Source of the DNA: Sphingopyxis sp. | Lineage (GTDB): Bacteria > Pseudomonadota > Alphaproteobacteria > Sphingomonadales > Sphingomonadaceae | Direction: 5' to 3' | DNA: 64,000 nucleotides | Assembly: GCF_016793825.1 (NCBI RefSeq) | Contig: NZ_JAEULM010000017.1 | Coordinates: forward strand, 1 to 64,000 | Shown here: positions 17,804-64,000 of the stretch, in pieces | Numbering within the stretch: the stretch's first letter is position 1 | Layout: each line of letters begins with the position of its first letter | Notes under the pieces: model-generated | Databases searched by the model: none | What the model saw: the letters and a program-made list of their open reading frames with translations, nothing else | Told to the model about the DNA's origin: nothing | Position numbers and translations under genes: made by a program

Positions 17804-19756
17804 TCACTGGCAGGCCAGACACTCGTCGTAGTCGGTGCTTTCGGCGCTGAGTTCATATTTCGGAGCCTCGGCGGTGTTGTCGGCCTCGACCCCGCCCGCG
17901 AAGCCGGCGCGCTGCACCGATTTCGAGCGGAGGTAGTAGAGCGATTTGATGCCGAGTTCCCACGCGCGGTAGTGGAGCATCAGCAGGTCCCACTTTTCGA
18001 CGTCGGCCGGGATGAACAGGTTCAGCGACGCCGCCTGATCGATATAGGGCGTGCGGTCGGCGGCGAGTTCGAGCAGCCAGCGCTGGTCGATCTCGAAGCT
18101 GGTCTTGTAGCAGTCCTTCTCGTCCTGCGTCAGGAAGTCGAGGTGCTGGACACTGCCGCCGCGTTCGAGGATCGAGTTCCAGATCGCGTCGCTGTTCTTC
18201 GCCTTGTCGACGAGCAGCGCCTCGAGGTGCGGGTTGCGGATCGAGAAGCTGCCCGAGAGCGTCTTGTGCGTGTAGATGTTCGCCGGGATCGGTTCGATGC
18301 ACGCGCTGGTGCCGCCGCAGATGATGCTGATCGACGCGGTCGGCGCGATCGCCATCTTGCACGAAAAGCGCTCCATCACGCCCTGATCGGCGGCGTCGGG
18401 ACAGGGGCCGCGTTCCTTGGCGAGCAGCATCGACGCCTGATCGACCTGCGCGCGGATATGCTTGAAGACGCGCAGGTTCGACGATTTCGCCATCGCGCCC
18501 TCGAACGGCAGGCCGCGCGCCTGAAGGAAGCTGTGGAAGCCCATCACGCCGAGGCCGACCGAGCGTTCGCGGCTGGCGCTGTACTTGGCGCGGGCCATTT
18601 CGGGCGGGGCGCGGTCGATATAATCCTGGAGGACATTGTCGAGCATGCGCATGACGTCTTCGATGAAGACCTTGTCGCCGTTCCACTCGTCCCAGGTTTC
18701 GAGGTTCAGGGACGAGAGGCAGCAGACGGCGGTGCGATCCTTGCCGAGATGGTCGCGGCCGGTCGGCAGGGTGATTTCCGAGCAGAGGTTCGAGGTCGAG
18801 ACCTTGAGCCCAAGGTCGCGATGATGCTTCGGCATCATGCGGTTCACCTGGTCGATGAAGATGATGTAGGGCTCGCCGGTCGCAAGGCGCGTTTCGACGA
18901 GCTTCTGGAACAGGCTGCGCGCGTCGACGGTGCCGCGCACGCTCTGGTCCTTGGGGCTGCGCAGGTTGAATTCGGCGCCGTCGCGGACGGCCTCCATGAA
19001 CTCGTCGGTGATGAGGACGCCGTGGTGGAGGTTCAGCGCCTTGCGGTTGAAGTCGCCCGAGGGTTTGCGAACCTCGAGGAACTCCTCGATCTCCGGATGC
19101 GAGACGTCGAGGTAGCAGGCGGCCGAACCGCGGCGCAGCGAGCCCTGCGAAATGGCGAGGGTCAGGCTGTCCATCACGCGGACGAAGGGGATGATGCCGC
19201 TGGTCTTGCCGTTCAAACCGACGGGTTCGCCGATGCCGCGCACCGCGCCCCAATAGGTGCCGATGCCGCCGCCGCGGCTGGCGAGCCAGACATTCTCGTT
19301 CCAGGTGCCGACGATGCCTTCGAGGCTGTCGTCGACCGAGTTGAGGTAGCAGGAAATGGGCAGGCCGCGGCCGGTGCCGCCGTTCGAGAGAACGGGCGTC
19401 GCGGGCATGAACCACAGCTTCGAGATATAGTCGTAGAGGCGCTGGGCATGGTCCTGATCGTCGGCATAGGCGTCGGCGACGCGCGCGAAGAGGTCCTGAT
19501 AGGATTCGCCGGGGAGGAGGTAGCGGTCCTCCAGCGTTTCCTTGCCGAAGTCGGTGAGCAGCGAATCGCGGCTGCGATCGACGACGATGTCGAATCGGCG
19601 CGCATGAACTTTCGCATCGCCCGAATCATTCAGCTTCGCGGACGAATCCCCCTTCGCCTCTCCCGTCGATTCGGGAGCGGCCGGAGCCTCTGTTTTCGTC
19701 AGTTCCACCGTCGCCACGTCGTTCGTCTCCACCCGTTCCGTCTCACGAAAATCCAT
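17804..19756 (-). CDS. nrdA: Ribonucleotide reductase class I, alpha subunit NrdA
   Basis: 650 residues. Catalytic subunit of class I ribonucleoside-diphosphate reductase. Visible landmarks: substrate-site cysteine in 'NLCSEITLPT', the radical-site loop 'CCLSSLNLE', 'APTASISIICG', and the C-terminal re-reducing pair in 'DECLACQ'. The N terminus is a 45-residue low-complexity Glu/Thr/Ala stretch and no ATP-cone (overall activity domain) is apparent, unlike longer enterobacterial NrdA. Candidate NrdR boxes lie about 180 bases upstream. Confidence 0.96.
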   Translation of the reverse strand: MDFRETERVETNDVATVELTKTEAPAAPESTGEAKGDSSAKLNDSGDAKVHARRFDIVVDRSRDSLLTDFGKETLEDRYLLPGESYQDLFARVADAYADDQDHAQRLYDYISKLWFMPATPVLSNGGTGRGLPISCYLNSVDDSLEGIVGTWNENVWLASRGGGIGTYWGAVRGIGEPVGLNGKTSGIIPFVRVMDSLTLAISQGSLRRGSAACYLDVSHPEIEEFLEVRKPSGDFNRKALNLHHGVLITDEFMEAVRDGAEFNLRSPKDQSVRGTVDARSLFQKLVETRLATGEPYIIFIDQVNRMMPKHHRDLGLKVSTSNLCSEITLPTGRDHLGKDRTAVCCLSSLNLETWDEWNGDKVFIEDVMRMLDNVLQDYIDRAPPEMARAKYSASRERSVGLGVMGFHSFLQARGLPFEGAMAKSSNLRVFKHIRAQVDQASMLLAKERGPCPDAADQGVMERFSCKMAIAPTASISIICGGTSACIEPIPANIYTHKTLSGSFSIRNPHLEALLVDKAKNSDAIWNSILERGGSVQHLDFLTQDEKDCYKTSFEIDQRWLLELAADRTPYIDQAASLNLFIPADVEKWDLLMLHYRAWELGIKSLYYLRSKSVQRAGFAGGVEADNTAEAPKYELSAESTDYDECLACQ

Positions 19757-19934
19757 TTAATCCGCCCCCGATTGCTCTTGCGCCGCAGCGCAAATGTTCC
19801 CGTCTTGTTCGACTCGGGGCGAGACCCCGGTCTTAGCATCTAAACCGACCGCGGGGGCACATATTTTTGGCCGCACGAAGCGCTTTCCCGTGCCCATATG
19901 CTGTGGGCGACGGAAATCCGCCATTCCTGGCCAA

Positions 19935-60086: not shown

Positions 60087-60101
60087 GTTCTCTTTATGTT
60101 C
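60087..60101 (+). promoter_or_regulatory. LexA (SOS) box of the DNA-repair operon
   Basis: GTTCTCTTTATGTTC, an exact GTTC-N7-GTTC, the direct-repeat LexA site of alphaproteobacteria. It ends 19 bases before the radical SAM gene start, in the promoter position. Confidence 0.8.
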
Positions 60102-60119
60102 GCATGATAGGCAGCGGAC

Positions 60120-61370
60120 ATGGCAGCCAAACCGATTCTCGAAAAGCTGGCGGTGCTGGCCGACGCGGCCAAATATGATGCGTCATGTGCCTCGTCGGGC
60201 ACCGTCAAACGCGATTCGGTCGCCAGCAAGGGGATCGGGTCGACCGAGGGAATGGGCATCTGCCACAGCTATGCGCCCGATGGCCGGTGCATCTCGCTGC
60301 TCAAGATCCTGCTCACCAATTTCTGTATCTATGACTGCCGGTTCTGCATCAATCGCGCGTCGAGCAATGTGGAGCGGGCACGGTTCAGCCCGCAGGAGGT
60401 CGTTCGGCTGACGCTCGATTTCTACAAGCGCAACTACATCGAAGGATTGTTCCTGTCGTCGGGCATCATCCGGTCCGAGGATTATACGATGGAGCAGCTT
60501 GTCGAAGTCGCGCGCATCCTGCGCGAAGAGCATCGCTTTGGCGGCTATATTCATTTGAAGACGATTGCGGGCGCCGATCCGGAACTGATCGCGCTGGCGG
60601 GTCTGTATGCCGATCGCCTGTCGACCAATGTCGAACTGCCGACCGCAGCGGGATTGGAGAGCTTCGCGCCCGAGAAAAGGCCCGAGACGATCCGCAAGAC
60701 GATGGCATCGGTGCGCGTCGGTACCGAGGATGCGATCGACGCGGCGAAGAGTCGGCTGATCGGCAAGGCGAAGCCGCCGCGTTTCGCGCCCGCCGGACAA
60801 TCGACGCAGATGATCGTCGGCGCCGATGCGGCGCGCGACGACGACATTCTGGAATCCGCGACGAGCCTCTATTCGGGGTACCGGCTTCGCCGCGTCTATT
60901 ATTCGGCGTACAGTCCGATCCCCGACGCGAGCAGCGACCTGCCGCCTGTGCGGCCGCCCCTGATGCGCGAGCACAGATTGTATCAGGCCGACTGGTTGCT
61001 GCGCTTCTATGGGTTCGAACGCGCGGAGATCATGGAGGGCGCGCGTGGGGGAATGCTCGATCTTGCGATCGATCCGAAGCTCGCCTGGGCGCTCCAGCGG
61101 CGCGAGGTCTTTCCGGTCGATATCAATCGTGCGCCGCGCGAAATGCTGCTGCGCGTGCCGGGGCTCGGGACACGCGCGGTCGACCGTATCATCGCGGCGC
61201 GGCGTCTTGGCAGGCTGCGGCTCGGCGATCTGGCGAAGGTGACCGCAACGGTGAAGAAGCTGCTGCCCTTCATCGTCACCCCAGACTGGCGGCCGGGTAA
61301 CCTGACCGACAGCGCCGGCCTTCGCGCGCGCTTCGCACCGCCGGCCGAACAACTGGCGCTCGCGCTGTGA
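60120..61370 (+). CDS. Radical SAM protein linked to UdgX (putative DNA modification/repair)
   Basis: 416 residues. Radical SAM cluster motif C69-x3-C73-x2-C76 (CIYDCRFC), preceded by 'DGRCISLLKILLTNF', then the TIM-barrel ('GLFLSSGI', 'GYIHLKTIAGAD', 'LSTNVELP') and a C-terminal helix-hairpin-helix DNA-binding region ('MLLRVPGLGTRAVDRIIAARR'). The family is almost always beside the UdgX-containing partner and is annotated as putative DNA modification/repair; the reaction is unknown. Its stop overlaps the next start (GTGA). Led by a LexA box. Confidence 0.92.
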   Translation: MAAKPILEKLAVLADAAKYDASCASSGTVKRDSVASKGIGSTEGMGICHSYAPDGRCISLLKILLTNFCIYDCRFCINRASSNVERARFSPQEVVRLTLDFYKRNYIEGLFLSSGIIRSEDYTMEQLVEVARILREEHRFGGYIHLKTIAGADPELIALAGLYADRLSTNVELPTAAGLESFAPEKRPETIRKTMASVRVGTEDAIDAAKSRLIGKAKPPRFAPAGQSTQMIVGADAARDDDILESATSLYSGYRLRRVYYSAYSPIPDASSDLPPVRPPLMREHRLYQADWLLRFYGFERAEIMEGARGGMLDLAIDPKLAWALQRREVFPVDINRAPREMLLRVPGLGTRAVDRIIAARRLGRLRLGDLAKVTATVKKLLPFIVTPDWRPGNLTDSAGLRARFAPPAEQLALAL

Positions 61371-62794
61371 GGGAGGTGATCCTGAAGGCGCCCGGCGATT
61401 TTGCCGAATGGCGGTGCGCGGCGCGCGGGCTGCTCGCGAGCGGCGTGACGCCCGACGAGGTAAGCTGGCGTGGCGGCGTGGAGGGGGCTTCGCTGTTCGG
61501 CGATGTAGGGTCGGGAGCGCCCGCGGGGCCGCTCAGCCTGCCGCGCGAATTGGTCGAGATTGCCGAACGGGTGATTTGTCATCGCGACCCCGAGGTGCCA
61601 GCGCGACTTTACCGGATCGTCTGGCGCGGGGCGCGCGACCGGCAACTTCTCGCGCGGACGACAGACCGCGAAGTCGCCTGGCTGCGCAGCGCCGACAAGG
61701 CGATCCGCCGCGACGTGCATAAGATGCATGCGTTCGTGCGTTTTCGGCGGCTGGGCGAGGAAGCGGGGCGCGAGAGTTTCGCGGCGTGGTTCGAGCCATC
61801 GCATCGCATCCTGCGGCTGACCGCGCCTTTCTTCCAGCGGCGCTTCTACGGCATGGACTGGGCGATCGTGACGCCGGATGCACGTGCGATCTGGCAGGAC
61901 GAAACGCTCAGCTACGGCCCCGGCGGGTCGAAGGACGAGGTGCCCGAGAGCGATATCGTCGAGGACCAGTGGCGGACCTATTACGGCGCGATTTTCAATC
62001 CCGCGCGGGTCAAGGTCGATGCGATGCGCGCCGAGATGCCGAAGAAATATTGGAAGAATCTGCCTGAGGCGCGGGATATCGCACCGTTGCTCGCGGGGGC
62101 GGAGGCGCGGGTGGAACGCATGCGCGAAGCGGCCGTTTCCATCGCGAACCCTCTGACCGACAAATGGCGGACGCGCGTGCCCGACGAACTGCTGCTCGAC
62201 GATGATGTGAAGACGCTGGACGATCTCGCGCGCGCCGTCGATCGCTGCACGCGCTGTCCGCTGCACTGCCGTGCGACGCAAGGGGTGTCGGGTGAAGGGC
62301 CGGCGGATGCGCGCATCATGGTCGTCGGCGAGCAGCCGGGCGACCAGGAGGATTTGCAGGGGCGGCCCTTTGTCGGCCCCGCCGGGCAGGTGCTGGACGC
62401 GGCGCTGGAGGAAGCGGGGATCGACCGGAGCCGGCTGTTCCTGACGAACGCGGTCAAGCATTTCAAGTTCGAGCCGCGCGGCAAACGCCGTCTCCACCAG
62501 AACCCGACGACGGGCGAGATCGACGTCTGCCGCTGGTGGCTCGACAAGGAACGGGCGTTCGTCCGGCCCGCACTGATCGTCACGCTGGGCGTGAGCGCGC
62601 TGCGCGGGGTAACGGGCAAAAGTGCGCGCATCGCGTCGATGCGTGGCGCGGTGCATGGACTGGAGGGCGGAAGCAAGTTGGTCGCGACGATTCACCCGTC
62701 CTTCCTGCTTCGCCTGCCCGACCGCGAACGCGCGGCCGAAGAGCGTAAGGCCTTCGTTGCCGACCTGATCCGCGCACGGCGGCTCGCCGCCTGA
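61367..62794 (+). CDS. UdgX-family uracil-DNA binding/crosslinking protein, fused form
   Basis: 475 residues. The N-terminal half (about 1-275) is the partner domain seen with the radical SAM protein; the C-terminal half is a family 4-like uracil-DNA glycosylase of the UdgX type: Fe-S cysteines at 294, 297 and 388, 'GEQPGDQED', and the UdgX-specific loop 'KRRLHQNP' with H377, the histidine that bonds covalently to the abasic sugar after uracil excision. 'HPSFLLRLPD' is the second motif. UdgX traps uracil in DNA rather than releasing it. GTG start overlaps the previous stop. Confidence 0.93.
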   Translation: MREVILKAPGDFAEWRCAARGLLASGVTPDEVSWRGGVEGASLFGDVGSGAPAGPLSLPRELVEIAERVICHRDPEVPARLYRIVWRGARDRQLLARTTDREVAWLRSADKAIRRDVHKMHAFVRFRRLGEEAGRESFAAWFEPSHRILRLTAPFFQRRFYGMDWAIVTPDARAIWQDETLSYGPGGSKDEVPESDIVEDQWRTYYGAIFNPARVKVDAMRAEMPKKYWKNLPEARDIAPLLAGAEARVERMREAAVSIANPLTDKWRTRVPDELLLDDDVKTLDDLARAVDRCTRCPLHCRATQGVSGEGPADARIMVVGEQPGDQEDLQGRPFVGPAGQVLDAALEEAGIDRSRLFLTNAVKHFKFEPRGKRRLHQNPTTGEIDVCRWWLDKERAFVRPALIVTLGVSALRGVTGKSARIASMRGAVHGLEGGSKLVATIHPSFLLRLPDRERAAEERKAFVADLIRARRLAA

Positions 62795-63807
62795 TGGCGC
62801 AGGCGAAAACCTGGATCGAGCCGCATTCGGGCGGCATTTACGTCAAGCCTGCCGACCTGTGGATCGACCCCTCGCGCCCGGTCGAACGCGCCGCGGTGAC
62901 GCACGGCCATGCCGACCATGCGCGCAGCGGCCATGGCGCGGTGTTCGCGACCCCCGAAACGCTGGCGATCATGGCCCTGCGCTATGGCGTCGATACCGAG
63001 GCGAGTCACAATCAGGCCTTCGTCTATGGCGACGGCTTCGAGCGCGGCGGGGTGCGCTTTTCCTTCCACCCCGCCGGGCATGTCCTCGGCAGCGCGCAGA
63101 TTTTGATGGAATATGCGGGCGAGCGGATCGTCGTGACCGGCGATTACAAGCGGCGTCCCGACCCGACCTGCGCGCCGTTCGAGGTCGTGCCGTGCGACAT
63201 CTTCGTCACCGAGGCGACCTTTGGCCTGCCGGTGTTCCGCCATCCGCCGACGTCGGGCGAGATCGCCAAGCTGATCGGCGCGGTGCGCGCCGAGCCGGAC
63301 CGTTCGGTGCTTGTCGGCGCCTATGCGCTGGGCAAGGCGCAGCGGGTTATCGCCGAACTGCGCGGCGCGGGGTGGGACGCGCCGATCTTTATCCACGGCG
63401 CGCTTGATCGCATGTGCGCGCTCTATGCGATGCACGGCGTCGACCTTGGCGAGCTGCGGCTGGTGAGCGAGGCCGACAAGGGCGAGATGGCCGGGCAGAT
63501 CGTGCTGGCGCCGCCCTCCGCGCTGAACGACCGCTGGTCGCGGCGGCTGCCCGATCCGGTCACCGCGATGGCGTCGGGGTGGATGCGCGTGCGCCAGCGC
63601 GCGCGGCAGCGGATGGTCGAACTGCCGCTGGTGATTTCCGACCATGCCGACTGGGACGAACTCACCACGACGATCGCCGAGGTGAACCCGGCGGAAAGCT
63701 GGATCACCCATGGCAGCGAGGACGGGCTGCTGCGCTGGTGCGAACTCACCCAGCGCAAGGCGCGCGCGCTGCACCTTGTCGGGCGCGATCTGGAGGAAGA
63801 GGCGTGA
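62794..63807 (+). CDS. Ligase-associated DNA exonuclease (metallo-beta-lactamase fold)
   Basis: 337 residues. Beta-CASP-like metallo-beta-lactamase: H37-x-H39-x-D41-H42 (THGHADH), 'FHPAGHVLGSAQI', 'VTGDYKRRPD', 'TEATFGLPVFRHP' and 'ISDHADWDEL'. Homologues sit next to LigC-type ATP-dependent DNA ligases and process DNA ends. Start overlaps the UdgX stop (TGATG) and its stop overlaps the ligase start (GTGA). Confidence 0.93.
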   Translation: MAQAKTWIEPHSGGIYVKPADLWIDPSRPVERAAVTHGHADHARSGHGAVFATPETLAIMALRYGVDTEASHNQAFVYGDGFERGGVRFSFHPAGHVLGSAQILMEYAGERIVVTGDYKRRPDPTCAPFEVVPCDIFVTEATFGLPVFRHPPTSGEIAKLIGAVRAEPDRSVLVGAYALGKAQRVIAELRGAGWDAPIFIHGALDRMCALYAMHGVDLGELRLVSEADKGEMAGQIVLAPPSALNDRWSRRLPDPVTAMASGWMRVRQRARQRMVELPLVISDHADWDELTTTIAEVNPAESWITHGSEDGLLRWCELTQRKARALHLVGRDLEEEA

Positions 63808-64000
63808 AGCGTTTCGCGGCGCTGATCGACCGGCTGGTCTATACGCGATCGCGCAACAGCAAGCTGGCGCTGATCGTCGATTACCTGCGTCATACGCCCG
63901 ATCCCGACCGCGGCTGGGCGATCGCCGCGCTGACCGAGAGCCTCGACTTTCCGGCGGTGAAGGCGGGCACGGTGCGGGCGCTGCTGGCGACGCGGATCGA
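63804..64000 (+). CDS. ATP-dependent DNA ligase, 5' part only
   Basis: 65 codons before the window end. 'MKRFAALIDRLVYTRSRNSKLALIVDYLRHTPDPDRGWAIAALT' matches the N terminus of the bacterial ATP-dependent DNA ligases that are associated with the exonuclease above and with cisplatin resistance. The nucleotidyltransferase motifs lie beyond the window. GTG start within the exonuclease stop. Confidence 0.88.
   Translation, partial: MKRFAALIDRLVYTRSRNSKLALIVDYLRHTPDPDRGWAIAALTESLDFPAVKAGTVRALLATRI

Follow-up and report, generated by a model that had tools for sequence, protein, structure and literature searches.

At its right-hand end, a 64,000-nucleotide stretch of Sphingopyxis DNA (the window, positions 1-64000 of contig C40 in a genome of 3.86 Mb) holds an operon of four genes that code for a radical SAM protein (rSAM), a fusion of DUF4130 with the uracil-DNA glycosylase (UDG) UdgX, a ligase-associated exonuclease (Exo) and an ATP-dependent DNA ligase. 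SOS control of this operon by LexA is strongly supported by the sites found upstream of rSAM in its relatives. We lean slightly towards regarding it as a LexA-repressed late-repair operon that consists of two modules, rSAM-DUF4130 and Exo-ligase, with UdgX as their shared edge.

Families were called by means of NCBIfam and Pfam profile searches with the NCBIfam cut-offs applied, and all four operon proteins score above theirs. The genes and their box lie on the forward strand. The LexA-type box GTTCTCTTTATGTTC (60087..60101) is an exact GTTC-N7-GTTC repeat of the sub-pattern GTTC-N5-WTG-TTC, and 18 bases separate its end from the ATG at position 60120, with which the rSAM gene begins (60120..61370; 416 aa; TIGR03916, rSAM_link_UDG, by NCBIfam; with a helix-hairpin-helix element). 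The second gene (61367..62794; 475 aa; NCBIfam and Pfam) codes for the fusion protein, which is composed of a DUF4130/TIGR03915 domain (residues 8-235; 61388..62071; NCBIfam) and a UdgX/TIGR03914 domain (residues 238-468; 62078..62770; NCBIfam). It is followed by the gene for Exo (62794..63807; 337 aa; TIGR04122, metallo-beta-lactamase family; NCBIfam and Pfam) and by the ligase gene (TIGR04120; NCBIfam). The first 197 bases of the latter (63804..64000) are part of the window; the complete gene (C40 63804-65372; 522 aa) runs beyond its edge. Consecutive genes overlap in GTGA (61367-61370), TGATG (62792-62796) and GTGA (63804-63807). The box and these overlaps agree with a first-pass annotation that had been made from the DNA sequence. 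The same annotation had named the second gene UdgX, which is correct for its second half; the DUF4130 half had been missed.

The bare GTTC-N7-GTTC pattern occurs four times in the window, compared to an expectation of 1.78 (6 of 100 shuffles reach four), and 112 times in the genome, compared to 57 times in a reversed control. The sub-pattern to which the operon box belongs was found 21 times genome-wide and twice in the reversed control. One lexA gene scores over the cut-off (match C43:308551-309225), and its own box, GTTCCACTATCGTTC, is a plain repeat that starts 66 bases before the match. AT-rich boxes furthermore adjoin recA, two imuA-like genes, SRAP, radA, an rmuC-like gene and ribonucleotide reductase; the imuA and rmuC matches score below the NCBIfam cut-offs. 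Given these boxes at lexA, recA and other SOS-type genes, the genome has a LexA regulon of the usual kind, to which the operon appears to belong. Two further observations concern this regulon. The large-chain gene of ribonucleotide reductase lies on the reverse strand within the window (at least 18296-19756) and has a GTTC-N7-GTTC box with a TTG-TTC end at 19796-19810, 39 bases from its start; it is likely a second SOS gene of the window. The two imuA-like genes are separate (L015 on contig C15 and L020 on contig C35) and each adjoins a strong LexA-type box, which suggests two translesion cassettes.

The box was then traced in relatives, namely in 387 genomes of the class (29 of which have TIGR03916 over the cut-off), at 80 named rSAM loci (15 of which end within 5 kb on one side), at 31 beta- and gammaproteobacterial (beta/gamma) rSAM loci and in 60 genomes of the genus. 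Within the genus, it precedes rSAM at all 41 loci examined (the own locus plus 29 plus 11); the 42nd locus, G444, was left out because a contig end cuts it. At the genus loci L089-L117, its position is -32 to -36 relative to the rSAM start. For the class, an exact GTTC-N7-GTTC was found no more than about 110 bases from the start of rSAM at 26 of 29 loci, and the entire 121 kb of these loci contain just 27 such sites. The three class loci without a box (G385, G166, G374) belong to genomes of 1.1-2.4 Mb. Among the named loci, 74 of 80 have the repeat before rSAM; the remaining six come from five non-alpha bacteria and one Niveispirillum, where a site with one mismatch is visible by eye. At 19 of the 31 beta/gamma loci, the motif CTG[TC]-N8-[AG]CAG lies within 150 bases of rSAM, and a one-letter variant does so at five more; the entire 183 kb of these loci contain 36 sites and 10 one-letter variants. 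None of the sites looked for was found at four beta/gamma loci (L327, L351, L355, L370). Loci of the Xanthomonadaceae type contain the palindrome GTCTCA-N5-TGAGAC or its core TCTCA-N5-TGAGA in place of the known LexA box. This palindrome was seen upstream of rSAM at L161, L198, L214, L353, L364 and L373, which are of Stenotrophomonas/Xanthomonas type (3/3 by eye, plus 3/3 loci of family f176), and was not found elsewhere among the beta/gamma loci. The site thus tracks the LexA type of the lineage while the gene stays, a pattern that is difficult to account for without LexA. The SOS control that the first-pass annotation had proposed from a single box in this way gains strong comparative support, and no locus that keeps the genes linked and lacks the box was seen among the 41 rSAM loci of the genus.

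Phage records with rSAM-like genes were used solely as a hint for other phyla, and five of ten records were examined. In two of the five, an exact GAAC-N4-GTTC, which we take to be the Gram-positive LexA type, lies at most 200 bases upstream of the rSAM-like gene. The next open reading frame (ORF) is DUF4130-like in all five by eye and in three by a tblastn match. The record L382 (1-1860), a contig from the gut, has a distant rSAM gene with two exact GAAC-N4-GTTC boxes upstream, a hint at SOS control of rSAM in a further phylum. L380 (CAKLQH020000003.1) is filed as an Acinetobacter phage; it contains glyS, glyQ and an rSAM-DUF4130 pair, and looks like a bacterial chromosome.

DUF4130 is the constant partner of rSAM, and UdgX is optional. 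A DUF4130 match adjoins rSAM at 29/29 class, 31/31 beta/gamma and 79/80 named loci, and the one named locus without it, L178, is cut. Whole-genome searches detected DUF4130 in all 29 rSAM-bearing class genomes versus 1 of 51 chosen genomes without rSAM; the latter, G152, has an rSAM fragment beside DUF4130. UdgX exceeds the cut-off at 20 of the 29 class rSAM loci. For the nine loci that lack this half, UdgX is encoded elsewhere in the genome in two cases (G026, G217) and nowhere over the cut-off in seven. The UdgX half is visible at 72/80 named loci. Of the beta/gamma loci, 30 extend far enough downstream to judge (the cut locus L377 does not), and 18 of these lack the UdgX half. Class genomes that have no rSAM can also contain UdgX over the cut-off. 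Among the genus loci scanned for UdgX (29 loci and L384), there was no rSAM without a UdgX match. At L384 (G441) and L034 (G339), the UdgX matches are split over two reading frames, which may reflect a decaying gene or an assembly error. In the rSAM tree, the Sphingopyxis sequences are joined to those of Henriciella and Hellea with a support of 100/99. A grouping with the other sphingomonads was not rejected (approximately unbiased test, p 0.056), and a horizontal gain of rSAM by Sphingopyxis is therefore not claimed.

Within Sphingopyxis, the second module has joined the first. Of the 60 genus genomes, 42 have rSAM and 56 have Exo over the cut-off, and Exo follows rSAM-UdgX in 40 of the 42 rSAM-bearing genomes. 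This count includes G426, in which rSAM is split over two contigs; the exceptions are G432 and G441, and in G441 rSAM and Exo lie apart, each with its own box. The 14 genomes with Exo and without rSAM form a natural deletion series at the locus. Here, the reference point is the gene of an HWE histidine kinase, which lies upstream of the operon on the same strand. G437 and G431 have retained box-UdgX-Exo-ligase with intact GEQPG, KRRLH and HPSFLLR motifs; their loci have lost rSAM and DUF4130, and no rSAM over the cut-off was found anywhere in these two genomes. As judged by eye, the leader and the start codon that rSAM uses elsewhere run straight into UdgX. The two genomes are not sisters on the Exo tree, the inner branches of which are mostly weak (10 of 40 starred). 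G408 and G390 have retained UdgX before Exo, without an AT-rich box nearby, and G414, G392, G427 and G442 have retained box-Exo-ligase. In G388, G424, G395 and G417, Exo comes directly after the kinase with no box between, and the deep-branching G401 and G403 likewise have no box. Where a box is present at the rSAM-less loci, it starts about 18-36 bases past the end of the kinase match and is therefore very likely the same box as at the rSAM loci. A locus can thus lose rSAM-DUF4130 and still keep UdgX together with Exo-ligase, and the content of the G437 and G431 loci indicates that these two units are separable.

Exo and ligase form a module of their own. Exo exceeds the cut-off in 113 of the 387 class genomes and lies within 10 kb of rSAM in two of the 25 class genomes that hold both, this genome (G000) and G281. 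In G281, Exo and rSAM are divergent, with a gap of 3.3 kb and a box at rSAM only. In the genome studied here, the usual partners of Exo and ligase, a helicase (TIGR04121) and a phosphoesterase (TIGR04123), are found together on contig C33, and GTTC-N7-GTTC was not found in the examined C33 stretch around them. Linkage of Exo-ligase with LexA-type boxes recurs, which suggests repeated SOS capture of this pair. For example, a box precedes Exo at -34 in all three members of family f103 (G263, G190, G103), and boxes lie close to Exo in G289, G221 and G140 of family f31. In two further members of f31, G031 and G351 (loci L229 and L256), the box stands before small ORFs upstream of Exo. A box also lies between Exo and rSAM in Brevundimonas bullata, where the two genes are divergent; at the other named Brevundimonas loci, Exo was not seen within the stretch examined. 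As to the small ORF between box and Exo, that of L229 is a Cro-type helix-turn-helix protein according to Pfam, and that of L256 has no Pfam match. The two modules also co-occur: Exo is present in 25/29 class genomes with rSAM versus 88/358 without, and in 21/22 versus 76/171 if genomes of at least 3 Mb are considered (raw counts in both cases, kinship ignored).

The C-terminus of rSAM resembles a sliding-clamp-binding motif and is a candidate contact for DnaN. Its last residues are QLSLF, QLELF, QMALW, QLALAL and similar. The clamp-binding consensus is a sequence of the QL[SD]LF type or a hexapeptide at the protein end, and the clamp motif of Pol IV is QLVLGL. For mycobacterial ImuB, a passage of PMC10421592 gives QLPLWG. 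A loose clamp pattern was found at the rSAM C-terminus of 25/29 class, 76/80 named, 31/31 beta/gamma and 29/29 genus sequences, and a strict one in 21/29, 68/80, 24/31 and 0/29, respectively; these sets overlap in part (e.g. G227 and L187 are identical). Among 270 control C-termini from neighbouring families, many of which are close relatives, one matched the loose pattern and none the strict one. QLALAL, the tail of the genus (61350..61367 in the operon), is of a weaker, hexapeptide-like kind, so that the motif is only a lead for the window's own rSAM, QLSLF-type tails being found in many relatives. Among the literature matches listed that combine a clamp motif with radical SAM or with LexA, none describes a clamp-like tail on rSAM.

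The sequence signatures of all four proteins are intact, namely CxxxCxxC of rSAM (residues 69-76; 60324..60347), GEQPG, KRRLH and HPSFLLR of UdgX, HGHADH of Exo, and KWDG of the ligase. The three UdgX sequences (residues 321-325, 373-377 and 443-449, within 62078..62770) correspond to motif A (GEQPG), the R-loop (KRR[IL]H) and motif B (HPS..LR). The R-loop residue H377 is invariant across 53 alignment rows, and the operon UdgX would accordingly be expected to bond covalently to uracil-derived abasic DNA. A search of solved structures with the DUF4130-UdgX profile gave 31 matches, all in the UdgX half, and the best PDB matches are UdgX entries. The same search with the rSAM profile gave no match at E <= 0.01. 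rSAM likewise matched no family model of the photoproduct lyase SplB; at E <= 0.001, the only matches are TIGR03916 (NCBIfam) as well as Radical_SAM and HHH_3 (Pfam), and the helix-hairpin-helix match HHH_3 scores below the Pfam cut-off. According to the rSAM alignments, Cys 23, 48 and 57, which are located N-terminal of CxxxCxxC, are invariant as well and could be ligands of a second metal site. The best solved relatives of Exo by sequence are CPSF73-type nucleases, and the NCBIfam model TIGR04120 bears the name cisplatin damage response ligase. The nearest named rSAM, from Sphingopyxis bauzanensis, has 89.6% identity, and the Exo protein of this species is identical to that of the genus member G420. 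A superoxide dismutase gene, named by sight, comes after the ligase. A role in anti-phage defence was considered and dropped, as the four operon proteins matched 0 PADLOC families.

The family TIGR03916 is presumably the helix-hairpin-helix/radical SAM family COG4277. For Bacteroidetes, the two-gene UDG system COG1573-COG4277 has been described as LexA-controlled with other site types, and Verrucomicrobia and Alphaproteobacteria are cited for the same system (PMC8565304, in part). There, the system is proposed to remove, by base excision, nucleotides that SOS polymerases have misinserted. The operon studied here resembles this system in that a UDG gene and its partner gene form one operon with LexA sites, the rSAM and UdgX genes being adjacent behind the site. 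It differs in the fusion of UdgX to DUF4130 and in the Exo and ligase genes downstream; neither Exo nor ligase is mentioned in the relevant passages of PMC8565304. A change of LexA site type is not new, as that work already places the operon under control of other types of site. DUF4130 has been noted with SplB-like radical SAM and UDG as a "predicted mutagenesis-related enzyme" (PMC3765255, in part). The same three families thus come together there in an SOS context; the passage contains no Exo of the TIGR04122 kind and no LexA site analysis of the operon. UdgX binds uracil-derived abasic DNA covalently via its R-loop His, as stated in the relevant passages of PMC10359453. In the model of these authors, UdgX protects abasic sites against breakage, and its complex is resolved by RecA pathways or by proteases. 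UdgX serves as a tool for mapping uracil, but its precise physiological role is described there as largely unknown. The operon UdgX has the GEQPG, KRR[IL]H and HPS motifs of MsmUdgX; unlike MsmUdgX, whose solved entries there comprise a single UDG domain, it is fused to DUF4130.

No report joining UdgX or rSAM-UDG with Exo-ligase is among the literature matches listed, which cover few subscription papers, and none linking UdgX with LexA or with radical SAM was found among the papers covered. No description of the constant rSAM-DUF4130 pairing with optional UdgX was met, and no search was aimed at this pairing; likewise, no reaction assigned to rSAM-DUF4130 was found in the literature covered. 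Ejaz and Shuman reportedly described a ligase-associated repair cluster composed of Lhr-Core, MPE, Exo and Lig. As in that cluster, Exo (TIGR04122) and ligase (TIGR04120) are adjacent here; unlike in the cluster, the helicase and the phosphoesterase (MPE) are not. The statement of the first-pass annotation that it knew of no description as one pathway is only half right, as LexA control of the COG1573-COG4277 part has been published. The alarm-controlled rSAM-UDG pair, half of the operon, is already known. What looks newer is the addition of Exo and ligase behind the same LexA switch, together with relatives that show separately lost parts.

The two-module reading would work as follows. rSAM and DUF4130, a widespread SOS pair, may be recruited to sites of repair or lesion bypass by the C-terminal clamp-binding tail and the helix-hairpin-helix element, and would act on a damaged base or nucleotide by radical chemistry, in parallel at the clamp. 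Exo and the ATP-dependent ligase, which normally reside elsewhere with or without SOS control, stand behind the box of the first module in Sphingopyxis. UdgX, fused to DUF4130, would be the joint; as known for its family, it caps uracil-derived abasic sites covalently. Exo could trim a strand that is capped by UdgX or otherwise blocked, after which SOS polymerases would resynthesize the DNA and the ligase would seal it. In this scheme, the binding to the clamp, the substrate and each hand-over between the enzymes are predictions from sequence. A more far-reaching version seems rather doubtful to us: rSAM-DUF4130 would be an ancient, widespread SOS pair that rides the replication clamp in the manner of a translesion polymerase and mends or rewrites base lesions by radical chemistry in post-replicative gaps, UdgX would be a fallback that caps unmendable sites, and in Sphingopyxis the SNM1-like Exo would clear the adduct before the ATP ligase seals.

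Several findings weigh against the two-module reading. Outside the genus, Exo lies within 10 kb of rSAM in only one of 24 other class genomes with both (G281) and at one of 79 other named loci. The 113 class Exo places outside this genome (30 loci and 83 upstream stretches, with little upstream DNA in L241 and L310) include eight with a strong box upstream, three from f103 and five from f31; a doubtful site of higher GC content was found at three more (L260, L296, L297), and no box at the others. Eight genus genomes (G414, G392, G427, G442, G388, G424, G395, G417) keep Exo-ligase with no rSAM over the cut-off in the genome and no UdgX at the locus, UdgX elsewhere not having been searched; Exo-ligase is therefore independent of a neighbouring UdgX. 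The operon rSAM ends in QLALAL instead of QLSLF, and the strict clamp pattern is absent from all 29 genus sequences. Finally, the exact known box is missing at three class, four beta/gamma and one alpha named rSAM locus. The notion that the box matches by chance and that LexA does not control the operon could draw on the bare pattern, with its 57 occurrences in the reversed control against 112 in the genome. We find this scarcely credible, because position and sequence of the box are conserved at 41/41 genus loci and the local LexA type is present at most beta/gamma loci.

It is possible, though rather less likely than the two-module reading, that the operon reflects co-regulation only, i.e. 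that Exo-ligase has come to lie behind a strong SOS promoter and that the modules act on different lesions without any hand-over. The modules are indeed unlinked in most genomes, LexA-type boxes precede Exo in genomes without rSAM over the cut-off (G190 and G103 of f103; G289, G221, G140 and G351 of f31), and Exo-ligase stays at the eight genus loci without UdgX and rSAM. However, the order rSAM-UdgX-Exo is retained in 40/42 genus genomes, UdgX stays with Exo after the loss of rSAM in G437, G431, G408 and G390 (with the box in two of them), and rSAM and Exo co-occur. The first-pass annotation had proposed one dedicated line, in which UdgX would lock uracil sites and rSAM would act on the resulting adduct, with processing by Exo and resealing by the ligase to follow. 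The arrangement of all four genes in one operon and the intact UdgX signatures are in line with this proposal, the published relative of which is the excision of nucleotides misinserted by SOS polymerases (PMC8565304, in the passages concerned). Yet rSAM-DUF4130 occurs without any UdgX over the cut-off in seven class genomes, the UdgX half is missing at 9/29 class and 18/30 beta/gamma loci, UdgX is found in class genomes that lack rSAM, and UdgX-Exo-ligase survives without rSAM. An action of rSAM on the UdgX adduct is therefore unlikely, and we consider the dedicated line as a whole distinctly improbable. The part that joins UdgX with Exo-ligase remains plausible, as G437 and G431 keep box-UdgX-Exo-ligase.

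For the two-module reading, the separability of rSAM-DUF4130 and UdgX-Exo-ligase is a guide to which genes should be tested together. The clamp-like tail, if true, would tie the chemistry of a radical SAM enzyme to the replication fork. A clamp-riding rSAM combined with UdgX, Exo and ligase would, if true, constitute an inducible repair line of crosslink type in bacteria.

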